28,841 nucleotides of DNA from a virus: positions 1 through 28,841 of IMG/VR virus record IMGVR_UViG_3300025120_000372. The stretch is one strand, 5' to 3'. The notes under the pieces are model-generated. The model was not told the DNA's origin. It did not search any database and saw nothing but the letters and a program-made list of their open reading frames with translations. This document shows positions 1,550 to 25,852 of the stretch, piece after piece (the stretch's first letter is position 1; the number at the start of each line of letters is the position of its first letter). Position numbers and translations under genes: made by a program.

Positions 1550-1659
1550 TGAAAAAGTTTTTTAAACGCCTCGAAGAAAACCCGCTTGTTGAGTTGGTGG
1601 GCATCGTTGCTTTACTAGCTGCCTTGGGTGTCTCTTTGTTTTTCGGTCAACCGATATGA
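1549..1659 (+). CDS. Small single-pass membrane peptide, 36 aa
   Basis: A short open frame beginning at the ATG that overlaps the previous stop (TAATG) and ending in an ATGA overlap with the next gene. GGGAG lies a suitable distance upstream. The peptide has a basic start (MKKFFKR), an acidic turn, and then about 19 hydrophobic residues (VGIVALLAALGVSLFF region, residues 15-33) that would span the inner membrane once. Its tight coupling on both sides supports it as a real gene. The function is unknown. Confidence 0.6.
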   Translation: MKKFFKRLEENPLVELVGIVALLAALGVSLFFGQPI

Positions 1660-1841
1660 ACGAAGTTAATCGAGCGCTGTTGATTGTAGACGATAATGCA
1701 GTTTGCAAACAATGCAAAGGCAACGGCTTCACAGCAGACTTTAACCACTTCACCGGAAAAACAGATTTTGAAGATTGTTTTTTCTGTGACAGCAGCGGCA
1801 AAGAAACAGTTTTAGTTTTTAACAAAAAGGAAACAAAATGA
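1656..1841 (+). CDS. Small zinc-ribbon protein with DnaJ-like CxxC pair, 61 aa
   Basis: It contains CKQCKGNG (C17, C20) and CFFCDSSGK (C41, C44), the CxxCxGxG...CxxCxxxG spacing of a DnaJ-type or general zinc ribbon, which suggests one structural zinc. It starts with ATGA overlap on the upstream membrane peptide and ends with ATGA overlap on the next gene, which repeats the second CxxC segment almost base for base. Phages often carry such mini zinc fingers near replication and recombination genes; the role here is unknown. Confidence 0.7.
   Translation: MNEVNRALLIVDDNAVCKQCKGNGFTADFNHFTGKTDFEDCFFCDSSGKETVLVFNKKETK
1761..1801 (+). repeat. Direct repeat copy 1 (CxxC-encoding segment)
   Basis: This 41-base segment matches 1913-1953 at 38 positions, including 31 bases with a single mismatch (1771-1801 against 1923-1953). 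It encodes TDFEDCFFCDSSGK. Both copies are read in the frame of their own gene. Confidence 0.9.
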
Positions 1842-2092
1842 CTTTAAGCAATTGGGGCCACGATGTTGACGCCCACATAACTGTAAAAATTAAAGACGTT
1901 TACGGAAATCGCACAGAATTTAAAGATTGCTTTTTCTGTGACAGCAGCGGCAAGGTCAGGCTTGTCTATCCCGTATGTGAAGACGCGCACCGCTTCGCCA
2001 AAATAGCTGGAACTAAGACGCTATCGCGCACCGTACTCTTGGCCGTAAAAGCTATGGGGTTTGACGTTAAAGTTAAAGGGGAAACATTATGA
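1838..2092 (+). CDS. Hypothetical protein sharing the CxxC segment, 84 aa
   Basis: ATGA overlap with the previous gene, and a clear AAGGA site upstream. Residues about 26-39 (TEFKDCFFCDSSGK) copy the second half of the zinc ribbon in the gene before, but the first CxxC pair is missing; only C31, C34 and an extra C47 are present. The C-terminal half (HRFAKIAGTKTLSRTVLLAVKAMGF) is helical and basic, as in a small nucleic-acid-binding domain. It may be a chimaera of an unrelated small protein with half of the neighbour's finger. Function is unknown. Confidence 0.7.
   Translation: MTLSNWGHDVDAHITVKIKDVYGNRTEFKDCFFCDSSGKVRLVYPVCEDAHRFAKIAGTKTLSRTVLLAVKAMGFDVKVKGETL
1913..1953 (+). repeat. Direct repeat copy 2 (CxxC-encoding segment)
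   Basis: Second copy of the segment at 1761-1801, offset by 152 bases, with mismatches opposite 1766, 1770 and 1778. The high identity at DNA level points to a recent duplication or gene conversion. Confidence 0.9.
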
Positions 2093-4466: not shown

Positions 4467-4675
4467 TGTATTGGGCCGTTCTTATTTTAACTTACTATGT
4501 TGAAGATCATACGATACATTCAAAAATTTACTTTAAAGATATAGCAACCTGTCACATAGCAAGTGATATCTATTACCCACTTATATCTGAGGAGTATGAA
4601 TTTTCTATGGCACGATGTAGAGAAACAGATTTATTCCACAGCGAGTTTAAACAAAGACCAAAGCTTAGACCATAA
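4466..4675 (+). CDS. Small secreted or membrane-anchored protein with two cysteines, 69 aa
   Basis: Last gene of the early operon, coupled to the previous stop by TAATG and without a clear Shine-Dalgarno. The start is hydrophobic (MYWAVLILTYYV), resembling an uncleaved signal anchor, followed by a polar part with cysteines at 29 and 51. The layout resembles the 56-residue protein at 5117-5287, also with Cys29 and a second Cys about 20 residues on. A disulfide in the periplasm is possible. Its 3' end overlaps the end of the endolysin gene on the other strand by 11 bases. Confidence 0.55.
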   Translation: MYWAVLILTYYVEDHTIHSKIYFKDIATCHIASDIYYPLISEEYEFSMARCRETDLFHSEFKQRPKLRP

Positions 4676-5120
4676 GCTCAAAGTGTGGGCCATCTATGAA
4701 TGGCCTACGCCCTTGGGTACGTCTTGTATCTATATAGCCATTCATTGCATCTTCCATCGTGCCATCGAAGTAAGCTATATTTGTTACTGTCCAGGCGGCT
4801 CCCCAACGGACGGGAACATCTATTTCCCTAGCAGACTCAGCCATTGCCGCAGCAATATCATCATATAGATTAAGCTCCCATGACGCCCTGGAACCAATGT
4901 ATGCCATGAGATCAACAGCAAGGCCATCAAGATGCTTTGACTTCATCGTTTGCGAAGCACCTTTTGCAACAAGATCCTCTTGTTCTTTTCGAGTACGCAT
5001 CCCGCAGATAACACCAAAGTCTATTTTAGATTTATGGATAGCTCCCTTTACTACAGCAGCCAGGCGTTCATCTACTCCGATCAGCCTATCTAGGCTTCGT
5101 GTTGATAATTTAAATGTCAT
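4665..5120 (-). CDS. Endolysin, M15-family zinc peptidase
   Basis: A 151-residue cell-wall peptidase related to L-alanyl-D-glutamate/D-Ala-D-Ala peptidases of the M15 group, such as the T5 endolysin. SKHLDGLAVD (residues 61-70) is the SxHxxGxAxD zinc motif with H63 and D70, and DGPHFEL (143-149) supplies the third ligand H146 and the likely catalytic D143. The H-x6-D and D-xx-H spacings match those of the T5 enzyme (His66/Asp73, Asp130/His133). There is no signal peptide, so it needs the holin for release. The ATG overlaps the upstream stop (ATGA). It is the last gene of the late operon and meets the early operon tail to tail. Confidence 0.93.
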   Translation of the reverse strand: MTFKLSTRSLDRLIGVDERLAAVVKGAIHKSKIDFGVICGMRTRKEQEDLVAKGASQTMKSKHLDGLAVDLMAYIGSRASWELNLYDDIAAAMAESAREIDVPVRWGAAWTVTNIAYFDGTMEDAMNGYIDTRRTQGRRPFIDGPHFELMV

Positions 5121-7976: not shown

Positions 7977-10900
7977 TTATGCTACTTGTATAGTAATTAC
8001 ACCATCTACACGGGTGCTATTTGTGAGTAGATTAAGATTATTTACATAACTTGTTCCTTGATTTATGTATTGAAGATATGCATAAGACTGACTAACTGCT
8101 CCATTAATAGTAGCATCGGTAATTGTAACTCCAGCGTTGCTAATAAAACCTACAACGCCACCTCCCGTTGTCCCACTTATAGAAGTAAACGGAAGACCAG
8201 CTACTATACAATCTCCAGAGAGACTTCCTTTAGCTGCCAGAGTAACTGAAAATGAGGCAACTAGGGTACGACCTACCTTGGTATAAGTACCTGTTGCACT
8301 AGAATAAGACTGACCAGAAACACCACCCGTGCCTCTAAGAACAGGTGTCCAAGTCCCTTCCTCATAATGATCCAGAATTTCAGCCGTAGTAGATGCACCG
8401 CCTGCTGAAGTAGCTGTCTGTGCAGAAAAATCAATGCCCTTACCTGCTGTGCCGATTACTAGGTTTCCGTCTGGAATTAAGGCATTCCCATTACCTTGAA
8501 GTTTTAATACCTGTTTCTGTGCTGTAAACGGCGCACCACTACCATCGTGGATATTAAACGCAAGAAAGCTATTAGTAGAAGTCCCTGAGTGTGAAGACAT
8601 GATAGAGTGATACCGCACAGTTGAACTGCTACGACTAATCCTAATCTTTTCAGCCTCAGTATTATCTCCAGTGGATACTCCTAAATACAATATGTCACCA
8701 ATAACATCTAACTTACCTTGATTAGATGTAGAACCACCAATGTTGACGTTGCCTGACGAGTCGATGCGCATACGTTCTGAGCCATTAGTGTTAAAACGCA
8801 AGTCATTATCACCTGTGCCACCACCGTAACGAATAGAGCCGCCGGGAGAGCCAGCACCACCTTGGACTGTTATAGCGTGTGCAGATGAAAGTGTGCCAAT
8901 GTAAGCACCGTTTGAAATCCCAATATTTCCTGACGAGTCAATGCGCATACGTTCTGAGGTTGTACCAGCAGTAGTGCCAGTACGTAGGGCTAAAAAAGCA
9001 CCTGAACCACTTGCCGCTAATTGCACCCCACCCGAAGTTGACTGGAACTGTTCAAAGAATGAATCAGCACCCCTTGAAATTTTTAAACCATTACCGCCGC
9101 TAGTTGTGGCTGCTTCAATCCTATAGGTAGGGCTTGATACCCCAATCCCAACATTACCGCTGCTGTCGATGCGTAGTCGCTCACCAAAAGTGCCATCTTT
9201 TCTTGTGTAAAATGCTAAGTCTGCTGTTCTATTTGCAGAGGTACTAAAATCTTCAGTGGCAATAGCTGATAAATACGCACCAGCCACATTATTTGCTGGA
9301 GCAAGAATTAAATTAGCCACGTTGTTTGTGGTGGCGTTTGTATTTGTAATGTAAAAGTTTGTTGTCGTTGCATGACTACCTCTGAAAAAGTAAGAGTCAA
9401 TTGCTGATGTGGTTGCATCTATAGTTCCGCTAATATCCACATTGCCTGTAACCTGACCCGTAGTCCCATCGCTGAAAATCTGTAGATCAGAGCCAGCGCC
9501 AAAAATGGCTTTGTTATTATCTCCAAAGAGAACATTGTTAGAACCCGTTGTATTGCCAATGCCCAGAACGGTGGACAGACTTCCCGCGCCACCCCCTGCC
9601 GTAGCAGCATCAACATAAGCTTTGATTGATTGCTGGGAAGCGATCTTAGTAGCACTGTTAGAAGCAAAGTTATCTTCGTCCAAGAACGCAGATCCAGATA
9701 CACCCGTATTTAATACGGGGCTAGTTAGTGTCTTATTTGTTAATGTATCTGTAGTAGCTTTACCTACCAGTGTGTCACTAGCATCAGGGAATAGAATAGT
9801 TCTAGTAGCAGTAGGATCAACAAGACCAAGATTAGTTACATTGCTGTTTTGATAAATACCTAATGTTGGAGTAGAACTACCATTGAATTGAAAGTTACTA
9901 TTGCCATTAGGGTCTGAAATATAAACCTGACCACCATCAGCTTCTAAGAAAATGTCATTACCAGAATTAATCTTAAGGCTTGCAAGGGAAGTAATGCTTT
10001 GGGTTGCACTGTTGTTTATTGCAACCGTTAATCTAGTTACGTTATCATCTTTAAAGAAAAATGTACCACTGCTTGCATCTATAATAATATTACTGGATGA
10101 ATCTAATGTAATCCCACCACCACCATCGTTTGTAATTTTATCTAACGCAATGCTACCAACATTAGTTATGTTTACATCGCTCATATCTAAGCTGCCCGTT
10201 ATAGTGGGGCTAGTTAGAGTTTTATTTGTAAGGGTGTCGGTAGTAGCTTTACCAACCAAAGTATCACTGGCGTCTGGAAGAAGCAAAGCTCTTGTTCCAG
10301 TAGGATCAACAACACCCAATGATGTGGTGTTGCTGTTTTGATAATATACCATAGTTGCCTGGGCGTTATTAACAAACTGTATTCTTTGCTGACCACTGGT
10401 TCCAAGTATATCAACATTACCACCAGCGGGTTTAAGAGCAATATCATTAGCAGAGTTTACATTAAAACCAGAAGCAGAGTTAAGCGTGGCAGCTACAGCA
10501 CTAACTTGAAATGTAAGCCTGGTCGCTCCACCATCTTTAAAATAAATTTCACCACCGTCTGCATCTAAGGTGATATCACCAGACGAATCTATAACTACAT
10601 CGCCTGAGAAGTTTAAGTTTCCAGTAAAGGCGGGATTAGCAAGTGTCTTATTGGTTAGCGTGTCTGTTGTAGCTTTACCCACAAGAGTATCGCTTGCATC
10701 TGGAAGAAGCAGCACCCTTGAGCCAGTAGGATTAACCACGCCTAGTTTAGTTGTATTGCTATTCTGGTAATAAGTTATCGTTGAACTACCAGCAGAATTG
10801 ATCTGAACAGCTTGCGCCCCAGAGTTTTGGAGAAAATCAACAGTACCAGTTGAGGGTTTAAAAGCTATACTCCCGTTTGTAACAGCCATGATAAGTTCGG

Positions 10901-11948
10901 TTGCTGAAACAATAGATGTGCCAGCAGCGCCAAGCTCAAATGTTATTCTAAGCGTACCGCCATCTTTGAAAAATACCTGATCACCGGCGGCATCTAAAAC
11001 AATGTCACCAGCAGCATCTAAAAGAATATCGCCAGATCCAGTGAGAGTGCCTACACCTAAACTACCTGTGATAACGGGGCTTGCTAAAGTTTTATTTGTT
11101 AGCGTGTCTGTCGTGGCCTTACCGACAAGCGTATCACTAGCATCAGGAAGCAGTAACGTCCTAGTAGCAGTAGGATCAACAACCCCTAATTTTGTAACAT
11201 TACTAGCTTGAAAATACTGCATCGTTGGTTGTGCGGTATTATCAAGCGCCATTCTTTGTGCGCCTGTGCTGGCAAGAAGATTAATCTGACCGCCGCCAGG
11301 CTTAAAATCTATATCGCCAGAAGTGCTTACTATTGTAAGGTTATCAGCAGCCGTAATAAGGTCAGTAATATTGCCATTGATAACAAGTTTAGTTGCACCA
11401 GCAGAGGTTTTAATTGTTATCTTTTGTGTATCAATATCAGTTCCTACAACCTCACTAACAGGTACAGTTGTAACATTGCCGGAAGCATCAAACTTTATAA
11501 GTTCATTTGCACGATCAGCAACCAAGGGAAGGCTAAGATTAACTCCAACAAGTTTGTCGCCTGGTTGCGCTATAATCGATCTGTCAACTTTTTCATCAAG
11601 TTGCTGTGACATAACCACGTTGCTATCAAGCTGCTCATTCAATGAAGAAGCAAGGAGATCACCCGCAGTAACAAAGTCAGTTGTTCTGGAAAGCTCTCTA
11701 CCACCCATGATAATTAAAGTATCAGAGGATATAAGCGCCGTGACTAAGGAAACTGACCCCGTTCCATTTGCGTTTATTGATACGCTGTAATTCGTTGCGC
11801 CGGTTCCAATCGCTAATACCACGTTGTTTTTTAAAACAGCGATATCGGAAGCTTGTAATATGTTGAAACTAAAAGCGAATGGCCCTGTTCCAGTAGTGCC
11901 TTGAAACTGAACTCTGCGCGTAACGGGGTTAATTGCGATATCGGTCAT
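7977..11948 (-). CDS. Tail fibre protein with T7-gp17-like N-terminus, 1323 aa
   Basis: The first 130 residues (RVQFQGTTGTGPFAFSFNIL, SLNEQLDSNVVMSQQLDEKVDR) resemble the N-terminal domain of T7-group tail fibres, which attaches to the tail. Residues about 254-743 hold four copies of a repeat built around LPDASDTLVGKATTDTLTNKTL, each followed by a beta-rich FKDGG-type segment, as in long beta-helical shafts. Residues about 920-1070 hold three copies of RxRIDSSGNxxIG. The C-terminus (from about 1194, EEGTWTPVLRG) is a receptor-side domain seen in many marine phage fibres. At 1323 residues it is more than twice T7 gp17 (553). It is the last large gene of the structural operon. Confidence 0.9.
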   Translation of the reverse strand: MTDIAINPVTRRVQFQGTTGTGPFAFSFNILQASDIAVLKNNVVLAIGTGATNYSVSINANGTGSVSLVTALISSDTLIIMGGRELSRTTDFVTAGDLLASSLNEQLDSNVVMSQQLDEKVDRSIIAQPGDKLVGVNLSLPLVADRANELIKFDASGNVTTVPVSEVVGTDIDTQKITIKTSAGATKLVINGNITDLITAADNLTIVSTSGDIDFKPGGGQINLLASTGAQRMALDNTAQPTMQYFQASNVTKLGVVDPTATRTLLLPDASDTLVGKATTDTLTNKTLASPVITGSLGVGTLTGSGDILLDAAGDIVLDAAGDQVFFKDGGTLRITFELGAAGTSIVSATELIMAVTNGSIAFKPSTGTVDFLQNSGAQAVQINSAGSSTITYYQNSNTTKLGVVNPTGSRVLLLPDASDTLVGKATTDTLTNKTLANPAFTGNLNFSGDVVIDSSGDITLDADGGEIYFKDGGATRLTFQVSAVAATLNSASGFNVNSANDIALKPAGGNVDILGTSGQQRIQFVNNAQATMVYYQNSNTTSLGVVDPTGTRALLLPDASDTLVGKATTDTLTNKTLTSPTITGSLDMSDVNITNVGSIALDKITNDGGGGITLDSSSNIIIDASSGTFFFKDDNVTRLTVAINNSATQSITSLASLKINSGNDIFLEADGGQVYISDPNGNSNFQFNGSSTPTLGIYQNSNVTNLGLVDPTATRTILFPDASDTLVGKATTDTLTNKTLTSPVLNTGVSGSAFLDEDNFASNSATKIASQQSIKAYVDAATAGGGAGSLSTVLGIGNTTGSNNVLFGDNNKAIFGAGSDLQIFSDGTTGQVTGNVDISGTIDATTSAIDSYFFRGSHATTTNFYITNTNATTNNVANLILAPANNVAGAYLSAIATEDFSTSANRTADLAFYTRKDGTFGERLRIDSSGNVGIGVSSPTYRIEAATTSGGNGLKISRGADSFFEQFQSTSGGVQLAASGSGAFLALRTGTTAGTTSERMRIDSSGNIGISNGAYIGTLSSAHAITVQGGAGSPGGSIRYGGGTGDNDLRFNTNGSERMRIDSSGNVNIGGSTSNQGKLDVIGDILYLGVSTGDNTEAEKIRISRSSSTVRYHSIMSSHSGTSTNSFLAFNIHDGSGAPFTAQKQVLKLQGNGNALIPDGNLVIGTAGKGIDFSAQTATSAGGASTTAEILDHYEEGTWTPVLRGTGGVSGQSYSSATGTYTKVGRTLVASFSVTLAAKGSLSGDCIVAGLPFTSISGTTGGGVVGFISNAGVTITDATINGAVSQSYAYLQYINQGTSYVNNLNLLTNSTRVDGVITIQVA
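8752..8957. repeat. Near-identical 29-base direct repeats within the tail fibre gene
   Basis: 8752-8780 and 8929-8957 match at 28 of 29 bases and encode SERMRIDSSG; a more diverged third copy lies near 9160-9185. The high DNA identity suggests recent duplication within the distal fibre. Confidence 0.8.
9721..11190. repeat. Four tandem modules in the tail fibre shaft
   Basis: Homologous segments of about 110 bases start near 9721, 10211, 10637 and 11084, so the modules repeat every 426-490 bases (142-163 residues). Each encodes a variant of LGVVDPTxxRxLLLPDASDTLVGKATTDTLTNKTL. The copies differ at many silent sites, so the duplications are old or under selection at protein level. The different linker lengths between copies suggest expansion and loss of shaft modules. 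Confidence 0.85.
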
Positions 11949-24043: not shown

Positions 24044-24293
24044 TGTTTGACCTTTCTATTCTTTTATCAATCATACGCACAATTTCAGCCATGCCTGTCC
24101 GAGCATAACCAAAACTTGCATCTTCTCCTGGGAACCAAGTGGGTTGTTCAATTGTAATACTTTTTAAATGGTTTAATACCTTTTGACCTTCAGCGCTTTT
24201 AAACACTTTGCCATAGATCATATCAATATCATCAGCCCTTGGTGTTTTAATCTCCGCTTGAATTAAACCTTCCCATCCATCGGGTGTACTCAT
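24036..24293 (-). CDS. Bbp19-like small phage protein, 85 aa
   Basis: The core VFKSAEGQKVLNHLKSITIEQPTWFPG (about 30-56) followed by a helix AEIVRMIDKRIE matches the pattern of the Bbp19 family of small podovirus proteins found next to the portal (assignment from memory). Its role in the virion or in head assembly is not known to me. It overlaps the portal stop as ATGA and ends inside the scaffold start. Confidence 0.8.
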   Translation of the reverse strand: MSTPDGWEGLIQAEIKTPRADDIDMIYGKVFKSAEGQKVLNHLKSITIEQPTWFPGEDASFGYARTGMAEIVRMIDKRIERSNNG

Positions 24294-25852
24294 TGCATCG
24301 CCTCCATTGTTGCGCCACCATCATCAGCAGTTTGTGGCCCTTGTTCGGCCATCATTGCTTGCTGCATTTGTTCAAGCATTGCTTGTTGTTCTTCTGGAGT
24401 AGTAAGCAATTCTTGATTTATATTCATTTTCTCAGCAATGTACTGAGCTATTCTAGGAATAGATAACGCTGCCTGTCCCTGTGGACCAAGAGAGTTTGCT
24501 ATCTGCATGAACTGCACAACATCATTTACTTCTTGAAGCTTCTGAGACTGAGCTAGAGGCGCTACGGGCGTTACCTTAACCTCGACACCGTTTACCTTTA
24601 GAGGTAAGTCAATATAGCCTTGCTGATCCATTATATACAAAATGCGAGAAACAAGCGGAACCATCGTTTCATTAATCAATCTACCAAAAGCAGACCCCAG
24701 GTTACTTGCTAGCTCTCTTGATCTTTCAGCAATCTCAGTTGCGGATCGCGCTGACATATTATCAGGCGGCAAAGTATCGTCCATTAAGATCTTTTTAATG
24801 TTAATACGCAAATCATTCATAACGATCTGGCTTACGTTAAAGTCACCAGTGCGAGGCAATGGCGCCAAAGACGCGCCTTGCGGTCCACCGTTACGCGCCA
24901 CGCCAATAATTGCACCTGGCTGGATCTTAATGTTTTGAGGGTTCAATATACCATCATCTGCTGCCGTATATACACCAGCAATAGCTAATGAAGCGTTTTT
25001 AAGAACTAGCTCAACAGTTTTGTTTAGGGTCTTTATATCGCTGATTGCAGTTACCAAAGGACCGCGACCATATACTTCGCCAGCAACTTTCATATAACGC
25101 GCAACGATAAACGGAGAGGAGTCCATAGTTCTGTAAACAAGCTCTTGGCGTTTGCTGGGCCAGATAACATGATAGCAAAACCGTTTTTCGTCATAGTCAT
25201 AAATTACAGCGTCAACTAAATCTATTTCTTTTGATGGAGAATTTGATATTGCTTCTTGTAGTTCCGATGTCATTTCTAGATCAGGAAACTCTTGCGGTAT
25301 CGCTTCAGCTTTCATTCTAAGCTTACGATATACGTTATCGATATTGCCAAACGTACCTTCCTCGATAGCAACCAGGTATTGAGGGATTGGTGTAAACCTA
25401 ATTGGAGTAGCTTCATCACCAGGCGTTACCATCATAACCGCAGTACCGACACATAGATCGAGCAAGAACTCGCCCATTGCCAGGTCAAAATTAGTCTGAC
25501 GCATGATTTCAAACATACGTTTTGTGTAAGCATCTAGTGCAGCTTGCGCTTGAGGCCGCTGTTCTTGTGGTATGCCAGTGCCAGCTTCTAATCGACACCA
25601 CTCTTTTTGTGGCGGGAACAAGCCAGACTGTATTCTATTAGCAAATCTTTGTGTTGCATGGATAGCTGTTGAGTCAAAAACCCTAACCATCTTGCCCTTA
25701 CCGGCAACACCACCTTCGTAGTATCCAGAATAAAGATTGCGCTGTGGTAAAGCAAATTCGTAACAGTCTTCGTAAATTGATCTCCACTCATCTTTACGAG
25801 CGTTGGCTTTAGCGTCACGTTCAATAATCTCAGTTACATTTAGCCTAGACAT
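24290..25852 (-). CDS. Portal (head-tail connector, T7 gp8-like), 520 aa
   Basis: The start RDAKANARKDEWRSIYEDCYEFALPQRN (about 13-40) and FDSTAIHATQRFANRIQSGLFPPQ are characteristic of Head-tail connector (gp8-type) portals; the length is close to T7 gp8 (536). It forms the dodecameric ring through which DNA is packaged and ejected. The central region includes YGRGP (about 260), and the C-terminus is Gln/Met-rich (EQMQQAMMAEQGPQ), as in related portals. AAGGA lies about 9 bases upstream. Confidence 0.95.
   Translation of the reverse strand: MSRLNVTEIIERDAKANARKDEWRSIYEDCYEFALPQRNLYSGYYEGGVAGKGKMVRVFDSTAIHATQRFANRIQSGLFPPQKEWCRLEAGTGIPQEQRPQAQAALDAYTKRMFEIMRQTNFDLAMGEFLLDLCVGTAVMMVTPGDEATPIRFTPIPQYLVAIEEGTFGNIDNVYRKLRMKAEAIPQEFPDLEMTSELQEAISNSPSKEIDLVDAVIYDYDEKRFCYHVIWPSKRQELVYRTMDSSPFIVARYMKVAGEVYGRGPLVTAISDIKTLNKTVELVLKNASLAIAGVYTAADDGILNPQNIKIQPGAIIGVARNGGPQGASLAPLPRTGDFNVSQIVMNDLRINIKKILMDDTLPPDNMSARSATEIAERSRELASNLGSAFGRLINETMVPLVSRILYIMDQQGYIDLPLKVNGVEVKVTPVAPLAQSQKLQEVNDVVQFMQIANSLGPQGQAALSIPRIAQYIAEKMNINQELLTTPEEQQAMLEQMQQAMMAEQGPQTADDGGATMEAMQ

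Follow-up and report, generated by a model that had tools for sequence, protein, structure and literature searches.

In the window (the whole stretch of DNA analysed here, 28,841 nt from a virus), a small phage gene, gene 2, very probably became the neighbour of gene 1 and then received in frame a copied piece of it, which was tolerated in a hairpin of the recipient protein. The coordinates of both genes, of the copied segment and of the other features concerned are collected in Table 1.

Table 1. Features of gene 1, gene 2 and the insertion, in window coordinates.
Feature	Position	Strand	Basis
Gene 1, 61-aa DnaJ-like finger protein with CxxC pairs C17/C20 and C41/C44; donor	1656..1841	+	ORF; Pfam; identity to kin
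Donor segment in gene 1 (second CxxC and glycine part)	1761..1801	+	Repeat comparison
Gene 1 end and gene 2 start, left cassette edge, GGAAACAAAATGA	1829..1841	+	
Gene 2, 84-aa member of a phage family (YG-4-YP ... AGTKT), recipient; cassette flanked by gene 1 and the 2089 gene	1838..2092	+	
Native 5′ part of gene 2	1838..1912	+	Gapless alignment to L003, 84% nt
In-frame insertion, 48 nt, 16 aa, TEFKDCFFCDSSGKVR	1913..1960	+	Absent from all relatives examined
Copied segment, 38/41 identical to 1761–1801	1913..1953	+	
Codons C31-F-F-C34 supplied by the insertion	1928..1939	+	
Final 7 nt (GGTCAGG) of the insertion	1954..1960	+	Alignment to L003
Native 3′ part of gene 2	1961..2077	+	Gapless alignment to L003, 81% nt
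Codons C47..H51, native and possibly completing a metal site	1976..1990	+	Family alignment
Gene 2 end and next gene start, right cassette edge, 11/13 identical to the left edge, GGAAACATTATGA	2080..2092	+	

A direct repeat shared by gene 1 and gene 2

The two genes are neighbours on the plus strand, and each contains one copy of a 41-nt direct repeat in which 38 positions are identical, the start-to-start distance is 152 nt and the longest exact run between both copies is 23 nt. Each copy opens on a codon boundary of its own gene. This repeat had been pointed out, with its length, number of identities, distance and frame, in an earlier sequence-only reading and was reproduced here; the same applies to the distribution of the CxxC pairs, both of which are present in gene 1 (CKQC and CFFC) and only one in gene 2 (CFFC). 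In random sequence of the same composition, the chance expectation for pairs matching at 38 of 41 positions was 8e-11 (about 1e-10) per whole window. When 41-mers of gene 1 and gene 2 were compared, the best match had 38 identities, whereas 30 versions of gene 1 with shuffled codons reached 26 at most. The copy present in gene 2 is still 93% identical to the gene 1 segment. Concerning the surroundings, one 12-nt pair and no more was reported as other direct repeat between positions 1000 and 3000, and ten further direct-repeat families of at least 20 nt were reported in the whole window.

Gene 1 as the donor

The two CxxC pairs encoded by the gene 1 ORF are each followed by a trailing glycine (CKQCKGNG and CFFCDSSG). 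The protein aligned to positions 17–52 of the Pfam model DnaJ_CXXCXGXG (PF00684) with an E value of 0.016 and 15.9 bits, which does not reach the gathering score of 32.7, and it gave no match at E up to 1 in a sequence search of the PDB. DnaJ contains four CxxCxGxG repeats, of which gene 1 has two. The likeness of gene 1 to the central domain of DnaJ thus lies in the two CxxC pairs with glycines after each, while the differences are the score below the gathering value and the size of the protein, as 61 aa leave no space for a J domain.

The window has two close kin among the IMG/VR contigs, L009 and L010, with aligned blocks 87–94% identical in nucleotides, except for one L009 block with 75%. 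Gene 1, including the segment, is present in both, with 84% amino acid identity in each case, and the proteins scored 16.5 and 16.2 bits, respectively, with PF00684, likewise under the gathering score. In both contigs, there is a direct overlap of gene 1 with the next gene, with no gene 2 in between. A two-pair CxxC protein was also found at the position of gene 1, before the homologue of the next gene, in the loci L101, L102 and L104. These proteins matched PF00684 with E values of 8.8e-5, 1.5e-6 and 6.5e-7 (23.1, 28.8 and 30.0 bits, all of them sub-threshold), and BLASTP of gene 1 against the L101 protein gave no significant similarity (E 0.066).

Gene 2 and its family

The family of gene 2 (YG-4-YP ... 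FAxIAGTKT) comprised 518 matches in IMG/VR and five in GTDB genomes, and includes, among the loci collected here, L003, L013–L097 and L109–L111. One record of a phage collection was matched by gene 2, and four, including that one, by the family member L015; a plasmid search with the L003 protein as the query gave no match. The nearest relative found for gene 2 was L003, with 79% identity in the alignment. Relatives with a looser motif occur in the pelagiphages Greip and HTVC024P and in Roseobacter phage CRP-1. In the latter (L109, 1689–1859), the relative lies between gp03 and gp04, where no feature is annotated. The neighbour ORFs of the family vary, the commonest cluster being present in 18 of the 90 loci for which they were given.

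Gene 2 carries AGTKT, the conserved YG and YP, and a later G (alignments A1 and A4). Its YG-to-YP spacing is 20 residues versus 4 in the family, and it was still counted as a member because this difference is exactly the insertion. So, it can be said that gene 2 shares with its family the motifs, the length and the predicted E-E-H-H-E order, and differs from it in the 16 aa inserted after YG and before YP, which were seen in the window only.

Searches of Pfam, PHROGs and NCBIfam with 57 members yielded no explaining family, with best E values of 0.0059, 0.007 and 0.012, respectively, and no model matched by more than three members. Gene 2 of the window itself matched nothing in Pfam and one PHROG at E 0.049. 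PADLOC, applied to 66 members, gave no explaining system (two models with one member each, best E 0.0055), and the best hit in a sequence search of the PDB, a ryanodine receptor chimera with E 0.0083, was taken as a chance match.

Comparison of the native part of gene 2 with L003 gave a dN/dS ratio of 0.16 with a dS of 0.80. The ratio points to purifying selection on gene 2 within the window–L003 pair and is silent on the time after the insertion; for the copied stretch, the number of sites does not suffice for a dN/dS estimate. Given the dS value, L003 is to be considered a relative, and gene 2 as not derived from L003 itself.

The insertion in gene 2 and its direction

BLAST comparison of the window with L003 gave two blocks, 1837–1912 and 1961–2077, that join gaplessly at L003 positions 5075/5076. 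The 41-nt repeat of the sequence-only reading stands, but the feature to be accounted for in gene 2 is an insertion of 48 nt, 7 nt longer than the segment then described as duplicated. Gene conversion, also suggested at that time, is to be replaced by insertion, because relative to L003 no sequence was replaced. A source for the final 7 nt was looked for elsewhere, with no convincing result, and no clear microhomology was seen in the alignments at either junction. An Arg precedes the insertion and another ends it (GNR ... R LVYP), so that it is bordered by this residue at both sides.

Among 175 family loci, 171 inspected by script and four by eye, none has an insertion between the anchors, and all show the 4-residue spacing. 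The IMG/VR matches read were the 80 best out of 518 in one search and the 80 best out of 487 in another, two overlapping sets, and 111 of the 175 loci were non-redundant by containment. Moreover, CxxC was present in none of the 65 relatives of alignment A4. Two rows with CxxC, L038 and L145, which belong to the same contig, were set aside, as the motif is located in read-through upstream of the start codon and so outside the protein. IMG/VR was also scanned for members with 16 extra residues at the position of the insertion, with a pattern that covers 16-aa insertions only, Tyr at both anchors and AGTK. The two hits obtained were the same sequence twice and were attributed to chance: the frame is short and enclosed by stop codons, tblastx did not match it to the window, and its resemblance to the family does not go beyond the fixed residues of the pattern. 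The segment with its serines coded by AGY was found in a single contig, in the gene 1 of L010; L009 has another serine codon. Considering all the genomes searched, only one carries the insertion.

Given the counts of 0/65 for CxxC and 0/175 for the insertion, the idea that gene 2 is an ancient CxxC protein was rejected. An ancient and independent CFFC in the homologues of gene 2, named beforehand as the observation that would speak against a duplication, was sought in the 175 loci and not found. As the gene 1 of the kin has the segment and the family of gene 2 is without the insertion, the segment moved from gene 1 to gene 2. This direction, set by the relatives of each gene, is supported, and with it the idea of a segment duplication, to which the presence of the segment in L009 and L010 and the absence of the insertion from the family loci add an orientation.

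Gene 2 as a probable added cassette

At a larger scale, gene 2 as a whole reads as a cassette inserted between gene 1 and the 2089 gene. When about 700 nt listed before the homologue of the latter were inspected in ten contigs, including those of L009 and L010, gene 2 was ahead of it in none (L108 is a fragment). In addition, tblastn of the L003 protein against the whole fetched stretches of 13 kin loci, from ten contigs, gave no hit with an E value of 1 or lower. To the left, the boundary of the cassette lies in AATGA, which is common to the start of gene 2 in L003 and to the junction of gene 1 with the next gene in L009. At the right edge, the homology with L003 stops at 2077 and that with L009 restarts at 2080, a switch suggesting that the last residues of gene 2 derive from the ribosome-binding and start sequences of the site itself. 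There is an ATGA overlap between gene 1 and gene 2, and the cassette keeps ATGA overlaps at both ends. The 11/13 repeat of the edges may be a reflection of ribosome-binding sites. A possible alternative is that, instead of a gain of gene 2 in the window, there was a loss from L009 and L010 by way of that edge repeat, but this is less likely, as gene 2 is absent from ten of ten contigs that have the next gene.

In the comparison with L009, the window stretches 738–1336 and 1838–2079 had no blastn match and were placed between conserved blocks, so the early region behaves as a zone of accessory-gene exchange.

Predicted structure and putative metal site

The L003 protein, modelled with AlphaFold2 and the family alignment, displayed the order strand-strand-helix-helix-strand, with a mean pLDDT of 90–94 for residues 11–60. 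The AlphaFold2 model of gene 2 of the window agreed with it in the E-E-H-H-E order and placed the insert after strand 1 and before strand 2. The pLDDT of the insert was low, 55 for residues 21–30 and 62 for residues 31–40, and the model thus speaks neither for nor against a given shape of the loop or a metal site in it. Compared with PDB folds, the L003 model gave no match at E up to 0.001 (best Z 3.5 over 50 residues, with MutSbeta), and the window model matched five entries with Z 2.0–2.2, by their titles no zinc finger among them; missing matches of this kind show neither a new fold nor the absence of a zinc fold. Among the viral models of BFVD, there were seven matches at E up to 0.001, all of them without a named function.

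Gene 2 contains four candidate metal ligands, arranged as C31-x2-C34-x12-C47-x3-H51, of which C31 and C34 are copied, and C47 and H51 are native. We take the spacing C-x2-C-x12-C-x3-H to resemble that of known four-ligand fingers. In the relatives of alignment A4, C47 was present in 55/65, H51 in 8/65 and both in 7/65. Gene 2 had been considered a "half finger" from its sequence, and it holds true that the copied pair is its sole CxxC, but the native C47 and H51 had been overlooked. With C31, C34, C47 and H51 all within gene 2, a partner molecule would not be needed to explain a putative metal site.

Possible roles of the insertion

Concerning what the insertion does, the interpretation to which we incline as the most likely one is that it is a neutral passenger, a harmless and functionless loop in the hairpin turn, which may be lost. 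Its occurrence in one genome only, its position at the turn between two strands in the models, and the conserved frame, which a tolerated insertion needs, are in agreement with this. On the other hand, it is not easily reconciled with the lack of insertions at this place in the 175 family loci, which indicates that the length of the hairpin is usually constrained, nor with the fact that both cysteines and the glycine are intact despite three base differences between the copies. A serious possibility, although a clearly less probable one, is that the insertion made a complete intramolecular metal site out of C31 and C34 plus C47 and H51, which are native and stand where helix 1 starts, and so a new zinc protein in one step. 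The four possible ligands are in one chain, C47 is a common residue of the family, and in the model C47 immediately precedes helix 1 (residues 48–57), whose first turn contains H51; moreover, both copied cysteines are intact, one of them with a silent change. However, C47 is common in relatives devoid of CxxC, where it must serve otherwise, and H51, being found in eight insertion-free relatives, is not a response to the insertion. The loop, modelled with low confidence, lends a site of this kind no support.

That gene 2 is half a finger completing a zinc site with another half, for instance gene 1 or a second molecule of itself, seems improbable. Gene 1 has another CxxC alongside the copied pair, the arrangement of DnaJ-like fingers, and the ATGA overlap makes co-translation of gene 1 and gene 2 likely, but the native C47 and H51 make such a partner unnecessary. 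It is very improbable that the real gene 2 is devoid of the insertion and that the repeat arose from misjoined reads in the assembly. The insertion is indeed known from a single virus contig, but both copies differ at three sites, with a longest common exact word of 23 nt and, as there is gene 2 sequence on both sides of the copy, the artefact needs two misjoins that both keep the frame.

Proposed origin of the insertion

In the sequence of events that we propose, gene 2 would first have come to adjoin gene 1. A piece of gene 1 would then have been copied by a short templated insertion, that is, by template switching in replication, or by a local duplication that was later trimmed. Either of these routes would give the observed arrangement, and either could leave the Arg flanks of the insertion. 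The copy presumably survived because the frame was kept and the turn of the beta1–beta2 hairpin can carry an extra loop. As a weaker suggestion, the placement of a CxxC knuckle before the native C47..H51 may have allowed the protein to bind metal within one chain; otherwise, the insert would be a tolerated surface loop.

Short templated insertions and duplications, produced by template switching or illegitimate recombination, are a known type of event. The window resembles them in that a nearby sequence was copied to a new place in the same orientation, and differs from them in that the copy enters an unrelated neighbour gene, in frame and with a recognisable metal-ligand motif. No comparable phage case was met in a literature search of limited coverage, which says little about what is in print.

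Other features of the window

A second short repeat, of 33 nt (8749–8781 and 8926–8958), is located in the minus-strand gene 7977–11948. It was considered as a similar copying event and set aside, as that gene is long and repeat-rich. The product of this gene looks like a tail protein. The longest repeat family in the window consists of four copies of a 170-nt repeat at 9699–11227, with 69–72% identity to the reference copy. Also on the minus strand, 4665–5120 encodes an M15-type peptidase (Peptidase_M15_4, just under the threshold), which is probably an endolysin, and 24290–25852 a head-to-tail connecting protein (PF12236), from which we presume a podovirus-like phage.

Significance

The gain of a motif is usually inferred long afterwards. 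Here, the relatives of the donor, an insert-free recipient family and the insert-bearing recipient are all at hand, and the position of the insertion can be placed on a predicted fold. The combination of an in-frame, gene-to-gene transfer of a metal-ligand motif with event-free relatives for both partners is unusual. The insertion in gene 2 offers a clean snapshot of a protein acquiring a ready-made motif, the function of the motif being only putative. If there is no metal binding, the case would neatly illustrate a tolerated insertion within the accessory region of a phage. If the new cysteines do bind metal together with C47 and H51, the transition between a fold devoid of metal and one that binds it would be directly testable with one gene and its natural insert-free relative. 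That a single short templated copying event sufficed to make a zinc protein out of an ordinary alpha/beta phage protein is rather doubtful; if this were true, the origin of a metal site would have been caught in the act, with the state before the insertion visible for both genes.
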